From the NCBI GenBank assembly GCA_038400315.1, contig CP151667.1, forward strand, positions 496,001 through 560,000: DNA of 64,000 bases, given 5' to 3'. Under the pieces are notes generated by a model, which was not told the DNA's origin, did no database searches, and worked only from the letters and a program-made list of their open reading frames with translations. Position 1 is the stretch's first letter, and each line of letters opens with the position of its first letter. Both the position numbers and the translations under genes were made by a program. Of this stretch, positions 2,542-60,054 are shown piece after piece. Origin of the DNA: Isosphaeraceae bacterium EP7. GTDB taxonomy: Bacteria > Planctomycetota > Planctomycetia > Isosphaerales > Isosphaeraceae.

Positions 2542-3291
2542 ATGTGTGAGCACGCCGCCCTACTCCCCAGCGACCTGGATCTCTGTCACGAGATCATCTG
2601 CCAACAAGCGGAAACGATCCAGGAGTCGCAGCGGCGGATCGAGCAACTGGAGCATCAGGTCGAGCTACGGCTCCTTCGCCAGTCCGGCCCCTGGCGGGAG
2701 AGAGTCGATCCCAACCAGCTTCGCCTATTCACCGATGACGCCCCCGATGCCATCGCCGAGGCTGCCGCCGAGGAGCCTCCGGAGCCGGAAGGCGCGAAAC
2801 TCAAACTGCGGTGGAGGCGCAGGGGCGACAGAAGCTCCCCGAGAGCCTGACCCGGAAGCGGTTCGAGTACGAGCTATCCCCCCGAGGAAATGCCCTGCCC
2901 GGACTGCGGACACACGCGGACGAAGATCGGCGAAGAGGTCAGCGAGCAGCTTGAGTACGTGCCGTCGTCGCTCTTGGTGATTCAGCGGCGCGATTTCGCT
3001 ACGCCTGTCGCGCCTGCCAGGAACTGTCGCCCTCGTGGACAAACCGCCTCAGCCGATCGACAAGGGGCTCCCCGGTCCCGGGCTCCTGGCCCAGACGATC
3101 ACGAGTCAATATTCGGACCACCTCTCGCTCTACCGGCTCGAAGACATCTTCGCCCGCCACGGTGTGATGCCATCGCGGGCCACGCTCTGCGGCTGGATGG
3201 CTTCCTGCACCGACCTGCTCACTCCACTCTTCGACCTGATGGTCAAAACGGGCGTTGCTGTCGACAGTCATTCACACGGATGATACCAGAC
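2542..3291 (+). mobile_element. Decayed IS66-family transposase (TnpC) remnant
   Basis: Pieces of one IS66 transposase appear in order but in changing frames. These are the N-terminal coiled coil with RRIEQLEHQVE and ERVDPNQLRLF (2542-2820), KLPESLTRKRFEYELS (about 2830-2880), the zinc-binding CPDCGHTRTKIGEEVSEQLEY block (2890-2985), YACRACQELS (about 2997-3030), the KGLPGPGLLAQ to LCGWMASC block (3035-3265), and finally IHTDDT around 3269-3287. At least four or five frameshifts separate them. Homology stops just at the first catalytic Asp, so the 3' half of the gene is missing. No flanking inverted repeats, TnpA/TnpB partners or target duplication were found. It is a relic that cannot move. 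Confidence 0.85.
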
Positions 3292-3826
3292 CCTGCCCCG
3301 CCTCGGAGCCTTCCCGTTCACCCGCCGCGAGTGCCGCGGTGAGCCACGACCGGGCGTAGGCCCACTCGCGGAAGGCCGCGGCGCGGGAGAGGCCCAGCGC
3401 CTCGGCGGCCTCCTCGATCGACAGGCCGGCGAAGAGGCGCAGCCGGGCGAGGTCGGCCGACGTCGCGTCCTCCTCCGACAGCCTGCCCAGGGCGGCGTCG
3501 ATGTCCAGGACCGTGTCGGGGTCGTGGTGGACCACCCGGTCTATCTCGTCGAGGGCGAACCGCTTGCCTCGCCCGCCGCGCCTGGCGGCGCGCTTGCGTC
3601 GGGCGTGGTCTACCAGGATGCGCTGCATCGCCACGGCCGCCGCCCGGAGGAACCCGCTCCGCTCCTCGAATGCTGCGCCGCCGAGCCTCAGATACGCCTC
3701 GTGGACCAAGGCGGTGGCGTCGAGCGTGTGCCCGGCCCGCTCACTGGCGAGCTTGGCGGCGGCGAGCCGGCGTAGCTCATCGTAGACCAGCGGGAAGAAG
3801 CCGCCGTCGGGCGGGGCGTCGCTCAT
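3272..3826 (-). CDS. ECF-type RNA polymerase sigma factor (planctomycete kinase-linked group)
   Basis: This 184-residue sigma factor resembles the ECF group that planctomycetes pair with Ser/Thr kinases (the TIGR02999-like type). Region 2 spans LVYDELRRLAAAKL, TALVHEAYLRL and FLRAAAVAMQRILVDHARRK. Region 4 includes LRLFAGLSIEEAAEALGLS and the recognition helix to WAYARSWL. The ATG overlaps the kinase stop by four bases (ATGA), so translation is probably coupled and the kinase is the likely upstream controller. The last residues (about VSSV plus stop) lie within the IS66 remnant on the other strand, so the native C-terminus has been replaced. Region 4 itself seems complete. Confidence 0.85.
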   Translation of the reverse strand: MSDAPPDGGFFPLVYDELRRLAAAKLASERAGHTLDATALVHEAYLRLGGAAFEERSGFLRAAAVAMQRILVDHARRKRAARRGGRGKRFALDEIDRVVHHDPDTVLDIDAALGRLSEEDATSADLARLRLFAGLSIEEAAEALGLSRAAAFREWAYARSWLTAALAAGEREGSEAGQGLVSSV

Positions 3827-6800
3827 CTCCCCTCCTTCGCCAGCTTCGGGGGCGCGGCGACGGGGAACTTCGCCCGCTCTTCCTTCCACGCCTTCGCCTC
3901 GTCGGCCTTGCCGGTCGCCTCCGCCAGCGCGATGAGCCGGTCGAGGGCCGCGCCGAGGCGCGACAACTTGGCTTGTGGTGGGATCTTGTCCGCCCGCTGC
4001 GTCATCCCCTCGTACCCGGACCGGAGGAGCGGCTCGGCCTCGGCATATTTCTCCTGGCCGAGCAAGGCTTCGCCAAGCATCGACCTCGTGTTCGGAGTGA
4101 ACCATTCATCGGGCGCGGCCTCCTCGCGGATGGCGAGGCACTCGCGCAAGACCGGCTCGGCCTCATCCCACGCCTCGACCTCCAGCAGGGTCAACCCCAC
4201 CCAGCCGAGGATCGAGGCCCGCGTATGACTGCCCGCGGGCGTGGTGGCGCGGGCCTCGGCCAGCATCTCCCTGGCGAGGGCGGCAGCCTTGTCGGGCTGG
4301 CCGGCGCGGACATAGGCGTTCTGAAGTCTCGAAGCGTGCATGCGCAACTGGGGGTGCTCACGACTCGCCCGTGCCACCCCTTCGAGCAGCGGCAGGGCCT
4401 CGCCCAGCCTGCCGGCGTCCAGGTAAATCGCGCCCAACCACCCTCTGGCGTTCCATGTCTCGAGATGATCGGTCCCGGACTTGGCGGCTCGCAGTCTGAG
4501 GGCCTCCTCGTAAAGGGGAATCGATCGATCGAGTTTTCCCAGCGACCAGTAGCCCGTGGCGAGGTTGTCCATGATCGAGAGGGTGTTGGGGTGGTCGGGG
4601 CCGAGGCTCGACTTCACCAGCGCCAGCGTCTCCTCCCAGAGCGGAATGGCGCGGTCGGGCTTGCCGAAGCTCAGGTAGGCGTTGGCGAGGTAGTTCACGG
4701 TCCCGAGGGTGGCGGGGTGGTCGGGGCCGTGCCTCGCCTTCCTCAACGCCAGCGCCTCCTCCCAGAGCGGAATGGCGCGGTCGGGCTGCTTGCCGCCGTA
4801 CTGGTAGGCGCTAGCGAGGTCGGCCATGGCCTGGAGCGTGTCGGGGTGGTCGGGGCCGAGCCTCGCCTTCCTCAACGCCAGCGCCTCCTCCCAGAGCGGC
4901 ACGGCGCGGTCAAGCTTGCCGACGAACCGGTAGCCCCCGGCGAGGACGTTCATGGCCTGGAGCGTGTCGGGGTGGTCGGGGCCGAGCCTCGTCTTCGCCA
5001 GCGCCAGCGCCTCCTCATGGAGCGGAATGGCGCGGTCGGGCTTGCCGGCGCCCATGTAGCTCATGGCGAGGCTGTTCATGGTCCCGAGGGTGAGGGGGTG
5101 GTCGGGGCCGAGCCTCGCCTTCGCCAGCGCCTCCTCCTGGAGCGGAATGGCGCGGTCAAGCTTGCCGACGGAGCTGTAGCCCTGGGCGAGGTGGTTCATC
5201 AACTTGATGGTGTCGGGGTGGTCGGGGCCGAGCCTCGACTTCGTCAGCGCCAGCGCTTCCTCATAGAGCGGCACGGCGCGGTCAAGCTTGCCGACGGACC
5301 TGTAGCCCATGGCGAGGTTGCTCATGGTCAAGAGGGTTTCGGGGTGGTCGGGGCCGAGCCTCGCCTTCGTCAGCGCCTCCTCCAAGAGCGCCACGGAGCG
5401 GTCGGGCTTGCCGGCGGCCCTGTAGGCGTTGGCGAGCATGTTCATGGCCTGGAGCGTGTCGGGGTGAACGGGGCCGAGCCTCGACATGAACGTCGCACGG
5501 GCTTTGGTCAACAAGACGATCGCCTTCTCGGCGTAGCCAAGACCGAGCTGCGACGTGCCCAGGGCCGCCTGCATCCGCGCGACGCCCAGCGGGTCGTCGG
5601 TCGCCTCCCCCTCCAGCGCGGCCGTCGCTTGGTCGAGACGCCGCCCGAGTCGATCCGACAGCGGCAGGGTCTCCTTGTCGCTGTCCTTATAAGGGTTCAG
5701 GTCGCGGAAGATCGAGAGCAGGATCTCGTTGGGCTTGTCCTTCTGGCCGAGCCGCTTCTCGGCCTCCTTCCGCCGGGCGACGGCGATCCCCCTCTGCCGG
5801 TTGGCCTCGGCCAGCCCCATGCTCGTCCCGACCACGCCGCCGACCAGCGCCAGGAGGACGAGCGACGCCGCGAACACCCGGCCCCGGTTCCTTCGCACGA
5901 ACTTGCGGAACCGATAGGTCGCCGTCGGCGGGCCGGCACTGACCGGCTCGTGGTTCGTGAACCGCTCGATGTCGTTTGCCAGCCCGATGGCCGACTCGTA
6001 GCGCCGATGCCGCTCCTTGGCCAGCGCCTTCATCACGATCCAGTCGAGGTCGCCGCGGATGAAACGGCTCAGCCTCTGGGGCTCAATGTGGCGGGCGGCG
6101 GCCAGGCCCGGCAGTCCGTCCGAGGTGCTTACCCGGCTGCTCGGCGTGGGCGGCTCGACCTCGCGGACCATCCGGAGCATCTCATCCAGGGCGGCCCGCT
6201 TGAGCGTCTCGCGCGGGATCGGGGTGCTGCCGGTCAGCAGCTCGTAGAGGATCACGCCCAGGCCGTAGATGTCGGCCCGCGTGTCCACATCCAAGGCGTT
6301 GAACGACGCCTGCTCGGGGGCCATGTAACAGGGAGTGCCGGCCACGGTGCCGAAGGCGCTGTACAGGCTGTGTTCGCTCAGTTGCAGGCCGCTGGTGGCC
6401 TTGGCCAGGCCGAAGTCGATCACCTTGGGGACGGGGTGGCCGTCGTGGCTCTCGACCAGGATGTTCGTCGGCTTCAGGTCGCGGTGGATGATCCCCTTCT
6501 GGTGGGCATGCTGCACCGCCGAGCAGATCTGGCGGAAGAGGGACAGGCGTTCCGGGAGGCCCAGCCGATGCTGATCGCAATAGTCCGTCAGCGGGATGCC
6601 CTTGACCAGCTCCATCACGAAGAAGGGGCGGCCGGCGTCGGTGCTGCCGGCATCCAGGACCCGGGCGATGTGCGGGTGGTCCATCAGGGCCAGCGCCTGC
6701 CGCTCGGACTCGAACCGAGCCAGGACGGTCTTCGAGTCCATGCCGGCCTTGATGAGCTTCAGCGCCACCTGGCGCCTCACCGGCTGCATCTGATCGGCGA

Positions 6801-7188
6801 GGAAGACGGTGCCCATCCCCCCCTCGCCGATCTCCTGGCGCAGCTTGTACCGCCCCGCGATGACGCTGTCGATGAGAGGGGACGGGGGTCCCGTCCGGTA
6901 AGAGGCGGCGGGGTCGGAGATCGAAGCGGTCCGCTCGCCCTCGGTGGCCGGCGGCCCCGAGTCGGCAATCTCGTCGTCAGCGGAGGTCACCGTCTCGGGG
7001 CTCCCCGCGAGGGGCCTCTCCAGCGCGCCGGCGGGATGATCATGGGCGGCGAGGAGTTCATCCAGTCGTCGCCGCAACTCGTCGTCGTCGCCGCATTCCC
7101 GGTCAAGGAAGGCGGACCGGCCCGCCAGGTCGGGCAGGTCGAGTGCGGAGTTGAACAGGGCTTTCACTCGCCGCGGGTCGAGGGCCAT
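3823..7188 (-). CDS. Membrane-anchored Ser/Thr protein kinase with C-terminal TPR array
   Basis: This is a 1121-residue Hanks-type receptor kinase. Residues 1-105 are an N-terminal region (a FLDRECGDD-type stretch typical of planctomycete kinases). The kinase domain covers about 113-410, with the Gly loop GEGGMGTV at 121, Lys144, HRDLKPTN at 235, DFG at 258 and APEQ at 290. A single membrane segment near 438-458 follows. Residues about 520-1060 hold kinesin-light-chain-like TPRs (LGPDHPDTL, LANAY, AIPLWEEALAL). All catalytic residues are present, so it should be active. GGAGG sits 8 bases before the ATG. It is the first gene of a two-gene unit with the ECF sigma factor, which is the reverse of the order in the other ECF-kinase pair here (52.9-56.1 kb). 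Confidence 0.93.
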   Translation of the reverse strand: MALDPRRVKALFNSALDLPDLAGRSAFLDRECGDDDELRRRLDELLAAHDHPAGALERPLAGSPETVTSADDEIADSGPPATEGERTASISDPAASYRTGPPSPLIDSVIAGRYKLRQEIGEGGMGTVFLADQMQPVRRQVALKLIKAGMDSKTVLARFESERQALALMDHPHIARVLDAGSTDAGRPFFVMELVKGIPLTDYCDQHRLGLPERLSLFRQICSAVQHAHQKGIIHRDLKPTNILVESHDGHPVPKVIDFGLAKATSGLQLSEHSLYSAFGTVAGTPCYMAPEQASFNALDVDTRADIYGLGVILYELLTGSTPIPRETLKRAALDEMLRMVREVEPPTPSSRVSTSDGLPGLAAARHIEPQRLSRFIRGDLDWIVMKALAKERHRRYESAIGLANDIERFTNHEPVSAGPPTATYRFRKFVRRNRGRVFAASLVLLALVGGVVGTSMGLAEANRQRGIAVARRKEAEKRLGQKDKPNEILLSIFRDLNPYKDSDKETLPLSDRLGRRLDQATAALEGEATDDPLGVARMQAALGTSQLGLGYAEKAIVLLTKARATFMSRLGPVHPDTLQAMNMLANAYRAAGKPDRSVALLEEALTKARLGPDHPETLLTMSNLAMGYRSVGKLDRAVPLYEEALALTKSRLGPDHPDTIKLMNHLAQGYSSVGKLDRAIPLQEEALAKARLGPDHPLTLGTMNSLAMSYMGAGKPDRAIPLHEEALALAKTRLGPDHPDTLQAMNVLAGGYRFVGKLDRAVPLWEEALALRKARLGPDHPDTLQAMADLASAYQYGGKQPDRAIPLWEEALALRKARHGPDHPATLGTVNYLANAYLSFGKPDRAIPLWEETLALVKSSLGPDHPNTLSIMDNLATGYWSLGKLDRSIPLYEEALRLRAAKSGTDHLETWNARGWLGAIYLDAGRLGEALPLLEGVARASREHPQLRMHASRLQNAYVRAGQPDKAAALAREMLAEARATTPAGSHTRASILGWVGLTLLEVEAWDEAEPVLRECLAIREEAAPDEWFTPNTRSMLGEALLGQEKYAEAEPLLRSGYEGMTQRADKIPPQAKLSRLGAALDRLIALAEATGKADEAKAWKEERAKFPVAAPPKLAKEGR
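4560..5560 (-). repeat. Tandem 120-129 bp coding repeats in the kinase TPR region
   Basis: The string GTGGTCGGGGCCG or a one- or two-base variant recurs at 4591, 4717, 4846, 4972, 5098, 5218, 5344 and 5464, that is every 120-129 bases and most often 126 (42 codons). It encodes the LGPDHPDTL start of each TPR unit. The DNA itself is repetitive, which suggests recent expansion by unequal recombination. Confidence 0.85.
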
Positions 7189-8872: not shown

Positions 8873-9358
8873 TCAGCCCGCCTTGCTGTCCGCGTGGTGC
8901 GGGTGGCCCGACTTCATGGCGGCGACCATCGCGCGGCAGGAGGATTCGCAGGCCTTCAGGGCCGTGACGGCCTCCTTCATTTCGCTGGAGTCGAACTTGG
9001 CGACCTCGGCGATGGTGTCCTTGCAGGCTTCGGCGCAGGCCGCGCAGGAATGGGCCATCAGCGGGCTGTGCTTGGAGATCAGGCACGCCGAGTGGGCGCA
9101 GAAGGTGGCGCAATCGCCGAGCAGGATCATTGACTTGTAGTGATCGGCCTTGCCGCTCGCGACCATCCCTCCGCAGTGGTGGTAGGTCTCATTACACGAG
9201 ACGGCGCACTCGCCACACGCCTTGAGACAGTCCGCGTGGACCTTGTCGTGCATGTGGTGTTCGTGCTTATCATCCGGGGCGGCGGCGTTGGCGTTCGCAC
9301 CCAACGCCATCAGACCCACGCCCGCGCCCAGCGTCCCCAGCATTTCGCGACGAATCAT
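8873..9358 (-). CDS. Four-helix-bundle copper storage protein (Csp1-like)
   Basis: This 161-residue protein probably stores Cu(I) outside the cytoplasm. The start MIRREMLGTLGAG followed by a hydrophobic stretch resembles a Tat signal peptide. After it comes a His-rich patch (KHEHHMHDKVH) and then 13 cysteines spaced along four predicted helices (CLKACGECAVSC, CATFCAHSAC, CAACAEAC, CESSC). The Csp1 family binds many Cu(I) ions through exactly this kind of Cys lining, and Csp1 proteins are Tat-exported. The start at 9358 has a strong GGAGGAGA site, whereas the open frame extends farther upstream without support. A CopA-type ATPase lies 6 kb away, which fits a local copper theme. Confidence 0.9.
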   Translation of the reverse strand: MIRREMLGTLGAGVGLMALGANANAAAPDDKHEHHMHDKVHADCLKACGECAVSCNETYHHCGGMVASGKADHYKSMILLGDCATFCAHSACLISKHSPLMAHSCAACAEACKDTIAEVAKFDSSEMKEAVTALKACESSCRAMVAAMKSGHPHHADSKAG

Positions 9359-9613
9359 GGTCGTCTCCTCCGAGGTGGATGTCCCGATTCGCGGGGCCGA
9401 GACGGACAGGCCGCTCGCCCCGATCATGAGGGAGTTCTTCCACGCAACTCCCGCGCCTGCGACGACGGGCGCCCGGTTCGGCCCGCGGGTCCGCGCCAGG
9501 AAAATTTGCCGCAGAAAGGTGTATTGGCGGGGCCCGTTCGGCGCAACATAAGGGCGGCGGGCGCGACGGCGGCTCTGCCGATGGCGATGGCCGGGCATGG
9601 GAGGCTCCGATCG

Positions 9614-12103
9614 ATGCGAACGGGCTGGTCGAGGTCGCTGACGCGAGACGTCGGGCGGCTGGCGGGGGCGGGCACGCTGGCGGGCCTGACCGAGGGGGAG
9701 GTCCTCCACGAGTTCGCCAGGCACCGCGACGAGGTGGCCTTCGAGTCGCTGATGCTCCGCCACGGGCCGATGGTCCTGGGCGTCTGCCGCCGCTGGCTGC
9801 GCGACCCGAATGACGTGGACGACGCCTTCCAGGCCACCTTCCTGGTGCTCGCCCGGCGCGCCCGATCCATTCGCCCGGGCGCGGCCCTGGGGCCCTGGCT
9901 ACACGGGGTGGCCCGACGGATCGCCGCGCGGGCCCGGTCCGAGGCCGACCGCAGGCCGCACCCCGGGCCCGGCGCAACCGCCGAGCTGGCCGATCCCAGG
10001 CCCAGCCCCGGCCCCGAGCTGCGCTGGGCCCTGGACGACGAGCTGGGCCGGCTCCCCGAGAAGTACCGGGCCCCGCTGGTGCTCTGCTATCTGGAAGGCC
10101 GGACCCACGAAGAAGCCGCCGCGGCCTTGCGCTGGCCGGTCGGCACGGTGCGCGGCCGGCTCTCTCGGGGCCGGGACGCCCTCCGCGATCGCCTGACCCG
10201 CCGAGGGATCGTTCCCGACGCCGGCCTGGGCGTCGCACTGACGGTCGAGCCCGCCGAGGTCGCCCGCATCCTGTCCGCGATGAGCCCGGTCCCCGCCGCA
10301 TTGATCGAATCGACCCGCCACGCCGCGCTCGGTGCCGCCGCTGGCCAGCTTGCCGGCCGCCTGGCGCTCTCCGCGCGGGTGGTCACCCTCTCGGAAGGAG
10401 CGACCAAGGCCATGACCCTGATCCCCCTGAAAGCCGCCGCAGGCTTCCTCTCCGTCGGCCTCGTCGCGGTCGGCGCTACCGCGATGGCCGCCAGGGGCTA
10501 CGGCCCGGGCTCCGGAGTGTCCTCGGAGCCGATCAAGTACCCGCTCATCCGGCTGGCCGTCGCCGATGCCCCGTCCCTGCCCAATCAGAATGACGGCAAC
10601 AGCCCGCCGATCCTCGCATCCAACGAGCCCCCGCCCGCAAGCTCCAATCAGCCGCCCGCCATGCCCGAGGAGATCGCGCATTCGCCGTTTGAAATGGACA
10701 GGGCGCTGCCTGGAAGCCCGCCTAACGGGCTTGCGCCGCCCTCGCCCAACCCGGAATCGCCGCTTCCGTCACCCTCGTCGATTGATGGTGTTCCGGTGCT
10801 CCCACCCATGCCGTCGTCAGATCAACCCTTCGATGTCGCCGACGGGCGAGTGCCGCCGATTCTGGACCATAACACTGAGCGGCCTTTACCTGCTCCGGAG
10901 CCTAGCACCGAGCAGCCTCCACTCGTCCTCCCTGAGAAGCCGACCCCGGAAGAGAAGGTTCTGTCGCCCAGGCGGCCCGGCGAGTCGGTGGCGAAGTATC
11001 TGGAGCGAGTGGGGGCGGAGATCGATGCAATGGTCAAGGAACTGACCGACGAACGGAATACGATGAGGGCTCGTCTGCATCAGATCGATTCAGATCTCGA
11101 GCGACTCGCCGGCTTCCAGAATGCCATGGGGATCGGTCCTGGAAACCTTGGGGTTGGCCGCGCACGTCGTAGTGCGATGCGCAAGGCGGATCCGGCAACA
11201 GAGACCGAGTTGGAGGATCCCGTTCCCGGCGGGTTCGAGCCCGCCAACCCTGCTGAGGATGTACCGCCCTCCGAAGCTCGGGCACCTCGCCGGAGGCCGA
11301 CGATCCCCGTCGAAGGCGCGGAGCTTATTCCGGCAAAGACCGAGCCCATTCCTCCGGATGCCGACCCTGCTGGCGGGGTGACCGTGAATAGGACTCCCAC
11401 ACGTCCCGTTGCTAATGTCGACTTCAAAGTTGCCGGCGAGAACAAAATCCTCGACATGGGCGAGGAAATGAATTTTATCGTTCGGATACGCAATCAAAGC
11501 GAGGTGGACGCCCACAAAATTCGGGTTCAGGCCATCGTCTCGGAAAACCTCAAGGTCGTTAACGTCACCCCCTTCTCCAGGGATGTGCAGCAGAGGCCTT
11601 TTGCAACGAACGACATCCGGACCGTCATTAATTTTCCGCTCATCGAGCAACTTTCCGCTTCGACGGCGTCCAGTCTCATGTCCGTCATGGTCATCCGAGT
11701 CAAGGCGGTCAAGCCAGGAGGCCGGGCCTCCTGCCGTGTCCAAATCACTCACCGAGACCTCGACGGCGACTACCTCGAACGCAGCGCCTCCGTTCAGATC
11801 TCTCCCAACGACGCCAGAGGCACTGATCCGGGGGGACTCGAAGAGTTGCCCGCCGGGGTGGAGCCCGCCCCTTCCTCACGGCCTTCCCCGACGCCTACGC
11901 CGTCAGTCCCAGCCGTCGCACCGATCGCGTCCGAACCAACCGTGCCTCCGGTTTCCGAGGCCCGGCCCACTGAAAGCTCCCCCATCGACCCTCCTGCCAC
12001 CCAGCCCGCCGACGCACCGGCGACTCCTACGCCCGGAAATGAGCCAACCCCCACGCCGAAAATTCCGAGTGAGGCGGTCCAATTAGAGTCCCGCCTCTTA
12101 TAA
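9614..12103 (+). CDS. Membrane-anchored ECF sigma factor with long extracytoplasmic C-terminal extension
   Basis: An 829-residue protein. Residues about 30-110 are sigma region 2 (HGPMVLGVCRRWLRDP, DAFQATFLVLARRA) and about 140-200 region 4 (LPEKYRAPLVLCYLEG, EEAAAALRWPVGTVRGRLSRGR). After a helical linker a membrane segment lies near 272-293 (AAGFLSVGLVAVGATAMAA). Beyond it come a Pro/Ser-rich stretch, a short coiled coil near 455-490, a DUF11/CARDB-like beta domain near 590-725 (MGEEMNFIVRIRNQSEVDAHKI) and a second Pro-rich tail. The layout suggests a sigma factor held at the membrane and controlled by its own outer domain, as proposed for planctomycete ECF groups with C-terminal extensions. 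GGAGG precedes the ATG at 9614; an upstream ATG at 9581 is also possible. Confidence 0.88.
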   Translation: MRTGWSRSLTRDVGRLAGAGTLAGLTEGEVLHEFARHRDEVAFESLMLRHGPMVLGVCRRWLRDPNDVDDAFQATFLVLARRARSIRPGAALGPWLHGVARRIAARARSEADRRPHPGPGATAELADPRPSPGPELRWALDDELGRLPEKYRAPLVLCYLEGRTHEEAAAALRWPVGTVRGRLSRGRDALRDRLTRRGIVPDAGLGVALTVEPAEVARILSAMSPVPAALIESTRHAALGAAAGQLAGRLALSARVVTLSEGATKAMTLIPLKAAAGFLSVGLVAVGATAMAARGYGPGSGVSSEPIKYPLIRLAVADAPSLPNQNDGNSPPILASNEPPPASSNQPPAMPEEIAHSPFEMDRALPGSPPNGLAPPSPNPESPLPSPSSIDGVPVLPPMPSSDQPFDVADGRVPPILDHNTERPLPAPEPSTEQPPLVLPEKPTPEEKVLSPRRPGESVAKYLERVGAEIDAMVKELTDERNTMRARLHQIDSDLERLAGFQNAMGIGPGNLGVGRARRSAMRKADPATETELEDPVPGGFEPANPAEDVPPSEARAPRRRPTIPVEGAELIPAKTEPIPPDADPAGGVTVNRTPTRPVANVDFKVAGENKILDMGEEMNFIVRIRNQSEVDAHKIRVQAIVSENLKVVNVTPFSRDVQQRPFATNDIRTVINFPLIEQLSASTASSLMSVMVIRVKAVKPGGRASCRVQITHRDLDGDYLERSASVQISPNDARGTDPGGLEELPAGVEPAPSSRPSPTPTPSVPAVAPIASEPTVPPVSEARPTESSPIDPPATQPADAPATPTPGNEPTPTPKIPSEAVQLESRLL

Positions 12104-12179
12104 AACGGTCTTTGTTCAAGACGAGAATAGTCGCATACTCCCAAGGCCCGCTCAACCTTTCACACGCCGCCGCAAGCCT

Positions 12180-12215
12180 CCGAGGCCCCGCCGATTCATG
12201 TCGGCGGGGCCTCGG
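12180..12215 (+). terminator. Perfect 15-bp hairpin terminator after the anchored sigma gene
   Basis: Positions 12180-12194 pair without mismatch to 12201-12215 around the loop TTCATG, followed by TCTTT. It lies 77 bases after the sigma stop. The rest of the 12104-12463 gap shows no gene and presumably holds the promoter of the next gene. Confidence 0.8.
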
Positions 12216-12463
12216 TCTTTGGGGCGGGCGGTCGGGCATCCTCCGAAAGGACGTCGGTCGGTGTATCGCAGTTCGGTGGCTTTATGCTTCGGCGCAGCGT
12301 GGCGCCCGGGCCAATCATCCTTCGCGTGCTAGGGTGCTTGAGTTGAACGGTATTGGATTGGCTTCTCGTTTGCTCTCGGGTGTCCTGCGTGCGAATGCCG
12401 CCCATCAACGCAAATTCATCCCACTTGCCCCTGCCCGATCTTGCACCCTTGAGAGGATGAGCC

Positions 12464-13408
12464 ATGCTTCGCACCCCGGTTCGAGTGGCCCGTTCCCGGT
12501 TTTCCCCGGCGATTGAGGGCCTCGAGCGGCGGGCGGTGATGGCCGGGGTGGGGGCCGCGGCGGAGGTCGCGGTGCGGATGGTGGCGGCCCAGGCTGCGGA
12601 GGATACGCCGACTCCGCTGGATCAGTTCGCCCCGGGGCAGACGTACAAGGGGGAGCCTGGCGGTCTTTATGCGAATGGGAGCAACGCGGCTCCTCAGGCG
12701 TTGCTCGATGCCGTGGATGCGGCGGCCTCGCAGATTCAGCCGCTCAACTCGCGGGGGCGGGCGGCGGCGAACGGGCGGGTCGGGGTGATCGCGATCGGCC
12801 AGAGCACCACGAATCAGTGGTTCCCTTATTTCCAGCGGCTGGCGCGGTCGAAGCAGGCCGAGCAGAAGGCGGGCACCTTCTACGTCAATGGCGGGCAAGA
12901 CGGCCAGGGCTCGGCGCAGTGGGCTTATGGCAATGCAACCTGGGCGACCCTGTCCAGGCGGGTCGGCTCGGCGGCACGGTTGCAGGTTCAGGTGCTCGTG
13001 CTGGATTCGGTGCAGTACTATCCGCAGAACGCGGGCAGAGTGCAGGCCCTGGCCAACTCGTACAGCGGCCAGCTCGCGACGATCGTGGCCCGGGCCAAGC
13101 GGGCTTATCCGAACCTGAAGCTCGTCTATGCGCTGCCGTATCACTGGGCCGGCGCCGCGTCGGCCAACAAGACGGTCACCGAGCCCGGCGGATATGAACT
13201 CCAGTTCGGCACTCGCCAGCTCGTCACGACGCAGTCGTACAACCAGCCGGTCACCGCCCGCGGGCCGGAAATCTGGGCCCAGACCCGGAACCCCGCTCTC
13301 TATTACGACGGCGTCCACTTCACCACCCAGGGGCGCCAGACGATGGCCGAGATCACTTACGGCTTCCTGAAGGCCGACCGCGCCGCGGCCCGCTGGCTGT
13401 TCCGTTGA
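12464..13408 (+). CDS. SGNH/GDSL hydrolase-like exported protein
   Basis: This 314-residue protein shows a divergent SGNH hydrolase pattern: GQS at residues 112-114 in VIAIGQSTTNQW at the block I position, and a C-terminal D282-G-V-H285 catalytic pair in YYDGVHFTTQG. Members hydrolyse esters, often on polysaccharides or lipids. In block I the usual Asp before Ser is Gln (GQS), so activity should be tested. The N-terminus RFSPAIEGLERRAVM resembles the LE-x-R type leaders of planctomycete exported proteins rather than a classical signal peptide. The gene stands alone after a strong terminator. The assignment rests on the two short motifs and their order. Confidence 0.65.
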   Translation: MLRTPVRVARSRFSPAIEGLERRAVMAGVGAAAEVAVRMVAAQAAEDTPTPLDQFAPGQTYKGEPGGLYANGSNAAPQALLDAVDAAASQIQPLNSRGRAAANGRVGVIAIGQSTTNQWFPYFQRLARSKQAEQKAGTFYVNGGQDGQGSAQWAYGNATWATLSRRVGSAARLQVQVLVLDSVQYYPQNAGRVQALANSYSGQLATIVARAKRAYPNLKLVYALPYHWAGAASANKTVTEPGGYELQFGTRQLVTTQSYNQPVTARGPEIWAQTRNPALYYDGVHFTTQGRQTMAEITYGFLKADRAAARWLFR

Positions 13409-13530: not shown

Positions 13531-14430
13531 ATGGACGGGCGGGCGGAGCAAGGGATCAGGGCGACCCAGGTCGGCTTGCTGGTGAACGTGGCCCTGGTGC
13601 TGGTCAAGATGATGGCCGGGATCATCGGGCACTCGTACGCGCTGGTGGCCGACGCGGTCGAATCGTCGATGGATATCTTCTCGTCCTTGATCGTCTGGGG
13701 CGGCCTGCGGGTGGCCTCTCAGCCGGCCGATGAGGAGCACCCCTACGGCCATGGCAAGGCCGAGCCGCTGGCCACGGCGGTCGTCGCGCTGCTGCTGCTC
13801 GGGGCCGCGGCCGGGATCACGGTGACGGCCATCCGCGGGATCAGGGCGCCCCACCAGACTCCGGCGCCGTTCACGCTGGTCGTCGCCGCGGCGGTCGTGG
13901 TGATCAAGGAAGTGCTCTACCGACGCGTCAGCGGCGTGGGGGCCGAGACGGGCAGCCACGCGGTGAAGGCCGACGCCTGGCACCACCGGAGCGACGCGAT
14001 CTCGTCCCTGGCGGCGTTCTTCGGCATCGCCGTGGCGCTCTGGAAGGGGCCCGGTTGGGAGACCGCCGACCAGTGGGCGGCGCTGGTCGCGGCCGTCGTC
14101 ATCGCCATCAATGGGGGCTTGCTCCTCAGGCCGGCGGTGCACGACCTGATGGATCGGAGGCCCGACGCGAGGATCGCCGACGAGGTCCAGGCCCTCGCCT
14201 CGGGGGTCGAGGGGGTCTGCCTGATCGAGAAGCTGCGGGTCCGCCGGTTCGCCTCCGAGTACTTCGTCGACATGCACGTCCAGGCCGACGCGGCGATGAG
14301 CCTGGAGGAGTCGCACAACCTCAGCGGGCGGGTCAAGCATACGGTGCGATCCGCCCTGCCGCTCGTGGTCGAGGTCCTCATCCACATGGAACCCTACGAG
14401 GTTCCGGTGGCCGATCGGGTCTCGGTCTGA
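13531..14430 (+). CDS. Cation diffusion facilitator (CDF) family metal exporter
   Basis: A 299-residue inner-membrane transporter that exchanges divalent metal (Zn, Co, Fe, Mn or Cd) for protons. Two metal-site helices are visible: HSYALVADAVESSMDIFSS (with the DxxxD-type pattern) and HHRSDAISS (HxxxD). HPYGHGKAEPLA, diagnostic for the family, lies between TM2 and TM3. The last 90 residues form the cytoplasmic ferredoxin-like domain (LRVRRFASEYFVDMHVQAD). GAAGGGG precedes the ATG. The next gene, an SBF-like transporter, starts 39 bases downstream on the same strand. Metal preference cannot be read. Confidence 0.93.
   Translation: MDGRAEQGIRATQVGLLVNVALVLVKMMAGIIGHSYALVADAVESSMDIFSSLIVWGGLRVASQPADEEHPYGHGKAEPLATAVVALLLLGAAAGITVTAIRGIRAPHQTPAPFTLVVAAAVVVIKEVLYRRVSGVGAETGSHAVKADAWHHRSDAISSLAAFFGIAVALWKGPGWETADQWAALVAAVVIAINGGLLLRPAVHDLMDRRPDARIADEVQALASGVEGVCLIEKLRVRRFASEYFVDMHVQADAAMSLEESHNLSGRVKHTVRSALPLVVEVLIHMEPYEVPVADRVSV

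Positions 14431-15505: not shown

Positions 15506-15519
<14 letters not shown>
14470..15519 (+). CDS. Bile acid:sodium symporter-like transporter (SBF_like/YfeH type)
   Basis: A 349-residue polytopic membrane protein of the SBF-like branch (PF13593 type, E. coli YfeH relatives). It has about nine to ten hydrophobic helices, beginning [20 protein letters not shown]. Family features include [11 protein letters not shown] in helix 2, the [18 protein letters not shown] segment that corresponds to the discontinuous transport helix, and [13 protein letters not shown] near the C-terminus. The substrate is unknown; relatives include bile-acid and organic-anion carriers. The start at 14470 is provisional because an ATG at 14485 fits equally well and neither has a strong ribosome site. 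Its last 14 bases overlap the convergent CopA gene. Confidence 0.87.
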
Positions 15520-18145
<2,626 letters not shown>

Positions 18146-47606: not shown

Positions 47607-48929
47607 TCAGCCGGGGGCCTTCACGGGCGGCTTGGCGGCGGCCTCGGGCGCGGCGGGTCCGCGGGCCGGGGCCTCGGCCGACCGGATCGTCACCGGGGTG
47701 TCGTCGGCGAGCTGGGTCTGGCCCGAGGTCACGACCTGCCCCTCATTCGGGATCGTCACACCCTCGCCGATGACCTCGATCCAGCCCTTGTCTTCCAGGC
47801 CGGTCGAGACGTTGACCGATCGGGCCTTGTTGCCCGCGGCCACCAGGAACAGCTTGGTCACGCCGGCGAACCGGACGATCGACTCCATCGGGACGACGGT
47901 CGCCTCGTCGTCACGCTTGATCAGGATCGATGCCTTGGCGAACCCGCCGGGGCGCAAGATCCCGTCGGGGTTGGGCACCGACGCCTCGACCTGGAACGTC
48001 CGGCTCGCGGCGTCGACCGACGGGTTGATCCGGGCGACGACGCCGTCGAAGACCTTGCCCGGGTGCGACGAGACGCTGATCCTGACCGGCTGGCCCAGCT
48101 TCACGTCGCCGCTGTGGCGCTCGGGCACGTAGGTCCAGAGCCGCAGCGGGTCCTCGATGACCAGCTCGGCCACGGGGTCGCCCTCGCGGAGCATCTGCCC
48201 CTCGGAGGCCTGCCGCTTCGTCAGGGCGTAGCCCAGCGGGGTCTTCAGGCCGGGCGGCTTCACCGACGGGACGGGTGCGTGGATCTCCATGTCGAGGCGG
48301 GCCTGGCGGGCGACGTCCAGGGCCACCTTGCTGGCCAGGGCGCTGGCCAGGTTCGACCGGGTGGTCAGCCGGGCCGTCTCCAGCGCGGCCTCGGTGCCGC
48401 GCAGGTCGTTCTCGGCGTTCTGCAGGTCCTGCGCGGTGCCCGCGTTCTTCTGCATCAGGTTGCGCTCGCGTGCCAGGTTCTGCTTCGACCGCTCCACGGT
48501 CACCTGAGCCTGGATCACCGAGGGGACGGCGTTCAGGTCGAAGTTGGCCGACGGCATCTCCTGGAGGCCGAGCCTCGCCAGCTCGACCTGGAGCCGCCGC
48601 TCGGCCTGGTCCACGGCCAGGTCGGAATCGACCGTCTCCAGCTCGACGATTGGCTCGCCCGGCTTGAGGCGGTCGCCCATATCATGGAAGACCTTGGCCA
48701 CCCGCCCGGTGCGCTTGGCCCCCAGGGTGACACTCTCCCAGCCCCGCAGGCTGCCCACCACCTCGACGGTGCGCTCCACTGGTCGCCTGACCAGCGAGGC
48801 CACCGTGACGGGTACCGCCTTGGGCACCGCCTCGACGTCGGTGTGCCCCGCCTCTCGGCCGCCGCACCCCTGGAGGGCCGCGAGCAAGATCCCGATGCCG
48901 ATCCCGGCCAACTTGAATCGCCGTCTCAT
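47607..48929 (-). CDS. RND periplasmic adaptor (membrane fusion) lipoprotein
   Basis: A 440-residue adaptor joining the RND pump to an outer-membrane channel. It has a lipobox (AALQGC) at residues about 18-23, a lipoyl/barrel-sandwich half-motif (GSLRGWESVTLGAKRTGRVAKV), a helical hairpin (about 100-230), the second lipoyl half (PVPSVKPPGLKTPLGYALTKR) and beta-barrel and membrane-proximal domains to the end. The Pro/Ala-rich tail is unusual. GGGGAGA precedes the ATG, which overlaps the TetR stop by four bases (ATGA). Confidence 0.93.
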   Translation of the reverse strand: MRRRFKLAGIGIGILLAALQGCGGREAGHTDVEAVPKAVPVTVASLVRRPVERTVEVVGSLRGWESVTLGAKRTGRVAKVFHDMGDRLKPGEPIVELETVDSDLAVDQAERRLQVELARLGLQEMPSANFDLNAVPSVIQAQVTVERSKQNLARERNLMQKNAGTAQDLQNAENDLRGTEAALETARLTTRSNLASALASKVALDVARQARLDMEIHAPVPSVKPPGLKTPLGYALTKRQASEGQMLREGDPVAELVIEDPLRLWTYVPERHSGDVKLGQPVRISVSSHPGKVFDGVVARINPSVDAASRTFQVEASVPNPDGILRPGGFAKASILIKRDDEATVVPMESIVRFAGVTKLFLVAAGNKARSVNVSTGLEDKGWIEVIGEGVTIPNEGQVVTSGQTQLADDTPVTIRSAEAPARGPAAPEAAAKPPVKAPG

Positions 48930-59082: not shown

Positions 59083-60054
59083 TCAGACACCCGGGAGGAG
59101 GCTCTCCATCAGCTTCTGGTTGTCGGCCGAATCGCGGAGCTTCTCGAGGGCGCGGTCCTGGATCTGGCGGACTCGCTCCTTGGAGACCGACAGCAGCTTG
59201 CCGACCTGGCTGAGCGAATGCTTGGACTTGCCGCCCAGGCCAAATCGGAGGGCCAGCACTTCCTTCTCGCGCGGGTTGAGGGCCCCCAGCAGGCGGCCGA
59301 CCGTCTCGTCCATGTCGACCTCGGCCGAGGGGTCGGCGTCGGGGTCGCTCATGGTCTGGAGCAGGCTGAAGTTGGAGCTGACGTCAAGAGTTGCGTCGAG
59401 CGAGACGGTGGGCCTCGTGGCCGTGTGGATCCTGCGGATCATTTCCGTCGAGCCGTTCAGATTGAGCGGGGGCAGTCCCGCGGCGGGGTCGTGACCGACC
59501 GATTCCTGGTCCTGCGCTAACTGACGCAGATGCCTGGGGCTGAGCCGGACCGGATAGGCCCCGGCGGCCACGGCCCGCTGCATCGCCTGGCGGATCCACC
59601 AGGTGGCGTAAGTCGCCAGCTTCGTCTCGCGAGTCAGGTCGAATCGGTCGATCGACTCGAGCAGCCCGCAGAAACCTTCCTGGAGCAGGTCGGAATAGGA
59701 GACTCCTCGGTCGCGGAACCGCTTGGCGATGTGCGCCACCAGCCGCATGTTGGCCATGGCCAGGCGGCCGCGCAGCTCGGAGTAGTGGCGAAAGATGGCC
59801 CCGAGGCGGGCCTCGGCCGGGCCGTCGCTCTCGTGCACCTGGCGAAGTTCGCTGTCCCTGAAGGCCAGATGGCCCGCGATCATCTCGGCCTCATCGGGCG
59901 GCTTGATCGATTCGAGCGCCTCGCTGAGCTTCCGCCTGCACTCGCCGAGCTGGTCGAGCAGCTTACGCTCTTCCAACGCCCCCAGGACCTGGGTCTCGGG
60001 ACGATCCAGTGCAGCCAATCCCTCGGTGTCGCCCACTTGCCGGATCGTTCGCAT
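59083..60054 (-). CDS. RpoD-family sigma factor (group 2/3 type)
   Basis: A 323-residue sigma-70 factor. Region 2 shows LAMANMRLVAHIAKRFRDRG, DLLQEGFCGLLESIDRFD and TKLATYATWWIRQAMQRAV; region 3 has PVRLSPRHLRQL; region 4 is LNPREKEVLALRFGLGG and SLSQVGKLLSVSKERVRQIQDRALEKLR. The large region 1.1 and the non-conserved insert of the housekeeping factor are missing, so it is an alternative, RpoS- or SigA-like paralogue. AAGGGG precedes the ATG. A long perfect inverted repeat follows the stop. pyrE faces it across a 483-base gap. Confidence 0.92.
   Translation of the reverse strand: MRTIRQVGDTEGLAALDRPETQVLGALEERKLLDQLGECRRKLSEALESIKPPDEAEMIAGHLAFRDSELRQVHESDGPAEARLGAIFRHYSELRGRLAMANMRLVAHIAKRFRDRGVSYSDLLQEGFCGLLESIDRFDLTRETKLATYATWWIRQAMQRAVAAGAYPVRLSPRHLRQLAQDQESVGHDPAAGLPPLNLNGSTEMIRRIHTATRPTVSLDATLDVSSNFSLLQTMSDPDADPSAEVDMDETVGRLLGALNPREKEVLALRFGLGGKSKHSLSQVGKLLSVSKERVRQIQDRALEKLRDSADNQKLMESLLPGV

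Follow-up and report, generated by a model that had tools for sequence, protein, structure and literature searches.

A predicted membrane-tethered ECF sigma factor of Isosphaeraceae bacterium EP7 whose tail resembles an exported-looking protein of its own genome

Results

A sigma factor gene that continues into a membrane segment and a long extension

The stretch analysed here, which we call the window, comprises 64,000 nucleotides of the genome of Isosphaeraceae bacterium EP7 (contig CP151667.1, positions 496,001 to 560,000), and it carries a gene for a sigma factor of the extracytoplasmic function (ECF) type, referred to below as the query, whose chain continues into a predicted membrane helix and a long C-terminal extension. 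A first-pass annotation made from the sequence alone had described a single 829-residue chain with complete ECF regions 2 and 4; the frame is intact, and both regions match Pfam above its cut-off (Sigma70_r2, E 1.3e-9; Sigma70_r4_2, E 1.3e-13). NCBIfam TIGR02937 scores 61.7 bits, the cut-off being 42.9. Judged from these matches and from those to ECF sigma factors in the PDB, regions 2 and 4 are adjacent and region 3 is lacking, the arrangement of ECF (group 4) sigma factors. The reading frame stays open upstream of position 9614, where a GTG stands at 9140, and it is a start at 9614 that fits the consensus N-terminus of the family.

The annotation had also listed one membrane helix after the sigma regions, Pro-rich spacers, a coiled coil and a DUF11/CARDB-like domain, and all of these elements were recovered, the helix and the coiled coil as predictions (Table 1). 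A single segment of the chain reaches a 19-residue Kyte-Doolittle average of at least 1.6 (1.83 at 275-293). The AlphaFold2 model of the head, built on an alignment of 47 heads, contains the two sigma domains and an unbroken helix 254-294 that continues from a juxtamembrane module into this predicted membrane segment (mean predicted local distance difference test score, pLDDT, 81.0; predicted template modelling score, pTM, 0.61); residues 201-230, just after region 4, were modelled with low confidence (pLDDT means 47-66). The model of the outer part (residues 445-740, with 18 relatives of the sandwich domain) has a mean pLDDT of 75.5, the spacers being of low confidence and the coiled-coil helix reaching ten-residue means of 86-94. 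The beta-sandwich that follows has eleven strands, short or long, with 11 of its 14 ten-residue blocks at 84 or above and the other three at 79, 77 and 56. Foldseek places it among Ig-like domains, many from surface proteins (a fibrillar adhesin, TMt 0.74; YcnI, 0.71-0.72; integrins and cohesins). Its match to the Pfam model of DUF11 is weak, at 16.6 bits and below the gathering cut-off of 24.6, but the domain is clearly homologous to the closing domain of a protein with DUF11 repeats, described below.

Table 1. Features of the query gene and its flanks (positions in the window; residues of the encoded chain)
Feature	Position	Strand	Basis and remarks
Whole gene	9614-12103	+	One intact frame, 829 codons plus stop (TAA), ATG start, no internal stop
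GGGAGG, likely ribosome-binding site	9599..9604	+	Nine bases before ATG; sequence
Sigma region 2, residues 47-113	9752..9952	+	Pfam PF04542; AlphaFold2; alignments with ECF structures in the PDB
Sigma region 4, residues 139-190	10028..10183	+	Pfam PF08281; AlphaFold2; PDB alignments
Conserved juxtamembrane module, residues 226-273	10289..10432	+	Residue counts per column, 117 heads
Predicted transmembrane segment, residues 274-292	10433..10489	+	Kyte-Doolittle, family columns; within modelled helix 254-294
Pro-rich spacer 1, residues 296-455	10499..10978	+	26% Pro
Predicted coiled-coil helix, residues 459-504	10988..11125	+	AlphaFold2; strict heptad run from 474
Pro-rich spacer 2, residues 505-600	11126..11413	+	19% Pro
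DUF11/CARDB-like beta-sandwich, residues 602-730	11417..11803	+	AlphaFold2, Foldseek, homology to DUF11-repeat proteins
Pro/Ser/Thr-rich C-terminus, residues 733-829	11810..12100	+	26% Pro
Strong hairpin past stop codon, possible terminator	12180..12215	+	Fold of 12172-12228, z -5.25

The head and its membrane segment define a family

The genome (7.2 Mb, five contigs) holds 55 Sigma70_r2 matches, 54 of them above cut-off, and 20 of the 55 lie in genes, the query included, that resemble the head of the query over about 240-350 residues and continue into extensions. A hydrophobic segment of at least 1.6 stands at the equivalent place in 19 of these 20 genes, the exception (S10) still reaching at least 1.46. 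The head is present in 33 of 41 sampled genomes of the family Isosphaeraceae (E 1e-20 or better), in 2 to at least 57 copies where present; at most 57 candidates were scored per genome, and the extensions were not inspected individually. In a phylum sample it was found in at least 25 of 199 genomes at 1e-40, with at most 11 candidates scored per genome; the loci of that scan (L093-L122) stand outside the head counts given below.

A set of 127 heads was assembled from the 20 of this genome, 27 from family genomes (L064-L090) and the 80 best-ranked among the matches listed, and duplicates identical over residues 61-200 were dropped, which left 117 distinct heads with the query among them; one of these proteins (L201, 304 aa, ending at a contig edge) is counted in the 117 heads and not in the 116 tails. 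The hydrophobic 19-residue window lies at the same place in all 117, at 1.46 or above in every case and at 1.6 or above in 111, while the stretch of sigma region 2 of the same proteins, taken as a control, reaches that level in none; a second segment of at least 1.6 occurs in five of the 116 tails. Residues D70, A71, Q73, A74, F76 and W95 are present in every head, and the juxtamembrane positions V226, P227, L230, T234, L259, G262, M267 and K273 are conserved in the family (L259 in 111, M267 in 107 and K273 in 75 of the 117). In the 47-head alignment (A1) the other 46 heads are 34-50% identical to the query. The query has the pattern of the planctomycete family drawn from this alignment: a conserved juxtamembrane module, one hydrophobic segment and a variable tail. 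The domain order that the annotation had proposed to look for in relatives recurs in the 20 genes of this genome and in related genomes, and is above chance.

Small residues at a spacing of five were also observed in the membrane segment (282, 287 and 292; window 10457-10489), with G282 in 69 of 109 heads, G287 in 87 of 115 and A292 in 67 of 117. The -35 recognition helix reads G-T-V/L-x-x-R with fair conservation among the twenty genes of this genome, and the putative -10 loop is variable, the roles of positions being assigned by reference to E. coli SigmaE.

The tails are diverse and include families of exported proteins

Blastp at 1e-4 with single linkage sorts the 116 tails into 34 clusters, of which 24 have one member. 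The tails of this genome match WD40 in S05 and S11 and weakly in S20, PD40 with a weak TPR match in S09, DUF1559 in S10, Poly_export in S03, Poly_export together with SLBB in S15, HlyD in S14, OEP in S17, and CarboxypepD_reg plus a thioredoxin-like domain in S13 and S18; below the Pfam cut-off, AhpC-TSA was matched in S19, CBM9 in S08, Lipocalin_4 in S07 and STN in S04, and Pfam gave no useful family for the tails of S02, S06, S12 and S16. Over all 116 tails at E 0.001, WD40 was matched eight times, CarboxypepD_reg eight, PD40 seven, STN seven and Poly_export six, these being among the best 25 of 116 families listed. Poly_export/SLBB, HlyD, OEP and the combination of carboxypeptidase-regulatory and thioredoxin domains are families known from exported proteins. 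Such wide variation of tails on one family of heads indicates that tail swapping is general. A strict heptad run is present in 10 of the 116 tails (0.38 on average in block shuffles), and a coiled coil as a general rule for the tails was rejected on that count.

The largest cluster, of 32 tails, shares a module of the 'IPIYVDP' type close to the secretin STN domain, and seven tails match Pfam STN at E 0.001. Two pairs of neighbouring family genes have tails of one cluster, as if by local duplication: S15 and S03 (L215:8858-10699 and 11211-13247; Poly_export), and S04 and S06 (L022, L024; STN-like).

The predicted outer domain of the query has a close relative in the same genome

The beta-sandwich of the query is 47% identical (E 7e-34) to the last domain of a DUF11 protein encoded in the same genome (L021), the other homologues ranging from 22 to 38%. 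This DUF11 protein contains four stretches that match DUF11 (E 7e-32), and its start, read by eye, has the appearance of a signal peptide. In 45 genomes searched, the homologue of the tail occurs once in each of 33 family genomes, twice in the genome of the query and not at all in 11. By profile search the domain was found in all 33 loci read (29 of L034-L062, L209, L210, the DUF11 gene itself and the query, L033), which cover 31 of the 33 other genomes, G003 and G024 having been left out. A sigma head shares the frame with the tail domain in the query alone and in none of the 31 other genomes read; a head farther upstream is not strictly excluded, because most of these frames are truncated where the locus begins, some 500 residues ahead of the domain. 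At least 10 of the frames with a readable start begin, by eye, like signal peptides. A tree of 19 rows joins the query tail to the DUF11 protein of its own genome (92/89), at a support below the star threshold of the tool and with a warning on the long query row. Seven columns are invariant over the 19 rows, C707 included, and the sandwich of the query retains these residues. The last domain of an exported DUF11 protein was most likely copied and joined to a sigma head within this lineage.

Free relatives were sought for three tails, those of the query, S15 and S14, with their signals read by eye. The S15 tail is 60% identical to a free open reading frame (ORF) of the same genome that reads as a lipoprotein by its lipobox, and the S14 tail is 42% identical to an HlyD-like ORF, likewise free and in this genome, that has a hydrophobic segment of its own at the N-terminus. 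These exported-looking relatives support a topology in which the tails lie outside. A HlyD-like frame in the window itself (47643-48158, minus strand) matches the S14 tail weakly, at 29%. An identity of 48% between the query tail and one row of a forced alignment (A3; L184 by count) was discarded as an artefact, there being no blastp match between the two.

No anti-sigma family in the chain or beside the gene

The annotation had stated that no separate anti-sigma gene lies beside the sigma gene, and Pfam (E at most 0.001) found no anti-sigma family in the eight neighbouring ORFs, two of which have no match of any kind. Its further suggestion, that the extension may act as a built-in anti-sigma factor, could not be shown: Pfam detects neither zf-HC2 nor any other anti-sigma family in the query chain at E up to 1, and the model of residues 201-230 is of low confidence. 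Over its length the head model superposes better on ECF structures with a bound anti-sigma factor (root-mean-square deviation 6.7-13.1, 136-168 residues aligned) than on those bound to polymerase (21-28); this comparison has no control model, and it was not used as evidence. Elsewhere in the genome zf-HC2, the one anti-sigma type searched for genome-wide, was found at two sites, each more than 80 kb from any of the 20 family genes. These matches (G000:C1:45177-45281 and 3198926-3199015) directly follow short ECF sigma matches (44656 and 3198354), so that ordinary sigma/anti-sigma pairs appear to coexist with the fused family in this genome.

A second ECF sigma factor (PF07638) is encoded in the window at 3275-4105 on the minus strand, adjoining a Ser/Thr kinase with TPR repeats at 3826-7188 (minus), and a further Sigma70_r2 match (E 1e-17) lies at 59569-59760 (minus) in a frame of 393 aa. 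A small protein rich in Cys and His, matched by no Pfam family, is encoded divergently to the query gene (8876-9370, minus); downstream lie a cation-efflux gene (13531-14427, plus) and a P-type ATPase with an HMA domain (15509-18145, minus), so that a metal-handling neighbourhood is possible. Copper sensing, suggested by these neighbours and by the Foldseek match to the copper-binding YcnI, is not claimed, because the fold is generic and adhesin, integrin and cohesin rows rank alike. The idea of a sigma factor beside the machine that it controls was likewise dropped, since no efflux-pump or polysaccharide-export cluster was recognised near S14, S03/S15 or S04/S06 (ORF filter, first residues read by eye). 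The T run after the hairpin that follows the query gene is short, and the consensus terminator scanner does not list the hairpin.

Discussion

A proposed receptor with the sigma factor inside and the tail outside

Sequence and models establish the build of the query chain, the conservation of its family and the relation of its tail to a protein of the same cell. We propose, as the explanation towards which we lean, that this single chain is at once a membrane receptor and a sigma factor whose release is controlled by a signal. The ECF sigma part (1-200) would stand in the cytoplasm, the juxtamembrane module (226-273) would lead to a single membrane helix (274-292), and residues 296-829 would be outside as a Pro-rich stalk, a coiled coil, a beta-sandwich and a Pro/Ser/Thr end. 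The annotation had already suggested a membrane tether and an outside C-terminal domain, and from the conserved segment, the exported-type tails of the paralogues and the exported-looking free copy we strongly infer this orientation, which is a prediction from sequence.

Several observations count against this proposal and have to be set beside it. The membrane segment is mild (1.83) and rich in Ala and Gly; the flanks of the query carry equal charges (+2,-1 in the 15 residues of each side), and the positive-inside bias of the family is modest, with the net charge of the sigma side higher in 73 of the 117 heads, equal in 20 and lower in 24. WD40, often a cytosolic fold, is found in eight of the 116 tails and, in this genome, clearly in two and weakly in a third of the 20. 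The conservation of the hydrophobic segment is in part selected, because the relatives were ranked by their likeness to a head that contains it. Five frames for site-2-type M50 proteases are present in the genome, which says little because such proteases are present in 14 of 14 control genomes, and no cleavage site was found by an internal signal-peptidase motif test on the heads. In favour of the proposal, Triton or SDS fractions were the only ones to yield five ECFs of Tuwongella immobilis, three of the five in one experiment, but the passages concerned are silent on which ECFs carry a membrane segment (PMC8567305). The long branch of the query tail (1.09 against 0.48 for its partner in the tree) and its low G+C content at third codon positions (GC3) are such as a weakly constrained tail would have.

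Taken differently, the first of these points would make the segment a helix buried within a soluble protein, and the tails domains for binding or scaffolding inside the cell. Such a cytoplasmic extension would accommodate the mild Ala/Gly-rich segment, the weak charge bias and the WD40 tails, but it does not sit well with HlyD, OEP, Poly_export/SLBB and thioredoxin tails, with three tails that have exported-looking free relatives in the same genome, with the recovery of T. immobilis ECFs in detergent fractions (PMC8567305) or with the low Cys content of the tails (0.33%, as against 1.78% in the heads, which carry a conserved Cys); we regard it as improbable.

The branch length and the codon usage bear on a different possibility, an accidental junction of a duplicated DUF11 domain with the sigma gene, after which the tail drifts and has no part in sensing. 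GC3 is 0.915 in the sigma part of the query gene (L001:1501-3987), 0.70 in its tail and 0.94 in the free DUF11 gene, a lowering which implies a different course of evolution for the tail, be it by a fast rate or by weak constraint; a fall of more than 0.1 from head to tail is seen in 7 of the 20 genes of this genome. Over 153 codons the query tail and the DUF11 domain differ to a nearly equal degree at the three codon positions (0.39, 0.34 and 0.45), and the fusion occurs in the query genome alone among 32 matching family genomes with a frame read. However, about 530 codons of the tail are still open, the sandwich is mostly modelled with confidence and keeps the residues invariant in the 19 rows, and widely differing tails on one family of heads make swapping a general event, so that a purely accidental fusion seems rather unlikely.

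How the sigma factor might be restrained and released

In the receptor proposal, holding at the membrane would keep the sigma part from RNA polymerase in the resting state, and the juxtamembrane module could possibly mask it as well. The tether itself, perhaps together with this module, would be the simplest restraint, because no anti-sigma family was found in the chain or in the eight neighbours and zf-HC2 lies far away. A signal outside (a ligand, a partner or a state of the envelope) would then cause the chain to be cut in the membrane helix or close to it, and the sigma half would be freed. Resting inhibition, signal and proteolytic release are only inferred; the annotation had held it probable that the factor is freed by proteolysis or works at the membrane, and on this no cleavage site could be demonstrated.

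The second half of that suggestion deserves consideration, since a tethered sigma factor might recruit RNA polymerase at the membrane and be controlled by its tail through the juxtamembrane helix, by conformation or by dimerisation of the coiled coil, and remain uncleaved. The unbroken modelled helix 254-294, which couples the juxtamembrane module to the membrane segment, the conservation of L259 and M267 and the predicted outside coiled coil of the query agree with such a membrane-bound worker, and a report that E. coli sigma factors termed membrane-associated disturb rRNA operon clustering (PMC12037070) makes activity at the membrane not absurd. Dimerising coils are nevertheless not general by the strict heptad test, the precedents for membrane-fused ECFs described in PMC8999054 favour proteolysis, and we consider this alternative unlikely, though the strongest of the competing readings.

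Cleavage could also be the work of signal peptidase, the segment being an internal signal peptide cut after A292, either as a regulated site-1 cleavage similar to that of RsiV and RsiP, which are cut at site 1 by this enzyme (PMC6066255; PMC8844934), or constitutively with shedding of the tail. The order K273, apolar 274-286, G287 (87 of 115), frequent V or A at 290 and A292 (67 of 117) is compatible with this, and the query reads A-M-A at 290-292. However, AxA near the end of the segment occurs at 0.53 in the 116 heads and 0.43 in shuffles, and internal membrane segments behave alike (0.43 and 0.32; 136 segments), in a test of little power because the signal-peptide control set (56) is itself not enriched (0.46 and 0.43). 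Columns 290 and 292 are small-x-small at 0.56, the expectation for independent columns being 0.55, and the median apolar run, of 20 residues, exceeds those of the signal-peptide set (15) and of internal segments (17). A split by signal peptidase thus has little probability in our estimation, and release controlled by a signal is the reading that we retain.

Relation to known systems

Extended ECFs have been described in planctomycetes: in Gemmataceae, ECF domains are combined with WD40 and other repeats, more than 115 ECFs are reported for Gemmata obscuriglobus, and Jogler 2012, Mahajan 2020 and Wiegand 2020 are cited for WD40 or other C-terminal extensions, all according to passages of PMC11032199, PMC4598750 and PMC8567305. 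The query family shares with these proteins the ECF head, the large C-terminal extension and the many paralogues per genome, and WD40 occurs in some of its own paralogues; the tail of the query differs in being a DUF11-like sandwich akin to a domain of an exported protein.

At least 26 ECF groups carry extensions predicted to be regulatory (PMC8999054, as for the groups that follow). Closest in plan are ECF48, ECF52 and ECF53 of Actinobacteria, in which, as in the query by prediction, the sigma factor is fused to one or two membrane helices and an outside extension; SCO4117 (ECF52) has a Pro-rich periplasmic part with a carbohydrate-binding domain, and a proteolysis model has been put forward for it. 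These groups belong to another phylum and have other outside domains and a zinc-finger (ZAS) anti-sigma domain, whereas none was recognised in the query. IutY of Pseudomonas putida (ECF243) likewise joins sigma factor and membrane regulator in one chain, and it is freed by regulated proteolysis through Prc and RseP; its fused partner is a membrane-bound anti-sigma factor of cell-surface signalling, a family which Pfam does not detect in the query at E up to 1. The same search found neither the SnoaL extension of ECF41 and ECF56 nor the TPR extension of ECF42. In SigV-RsiV of Bacillus subtilis, control of the ECF runs by way of a membrane protein that senses with its outer part and loses it by cleavage (PMC6066255), but there two proteins are involved, whereas the query is one chain and its cleavage a proposal.

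Fusions of ECF and WD40 in planctomycetes, and ECFs fused to membrane parts in other bacteria, have thus been published; the newer part is the borrowing and swapping of exported tails, and no description of sigma tails copied from exported proteins was found in the literature searched, which excluded the primary planctomycete papers and the 2021 re-classification of ECFs. The query as first annotated is real and was correctly seen, and, as one member of a large family, it loses in singularity and gains in interest.

We would tentatively go one step further, to a conjecture that we hold less firmly than the receptor proposal itself: one sigma-membrane head may have been joined repeatedly to duplicates of the cell's own exported proteins (a DUF11 domain, a polysaccharide-export protein, an efflux adaptor, a TolC-like protein), each serving as a bait or decoy subunit in a plug-in receptor kit. 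Such a bait might assemble with the real envelope protein or bind its partners, and so report its state directly to transcription, sensor, membrane relay and sigma factor being united in a single chain that needs no anti-sigma factor. For the outside domain of the query a parent protein can be pointed to within the same cell, and this makes the bait idea checkable. In most described systems sigma and anti-sigma factor are two separate proteins; if our proposal is true, the expansion of ECFs in this family of planctomycetes would in large part consist of single-chain receptors with freely swapped outside parts.

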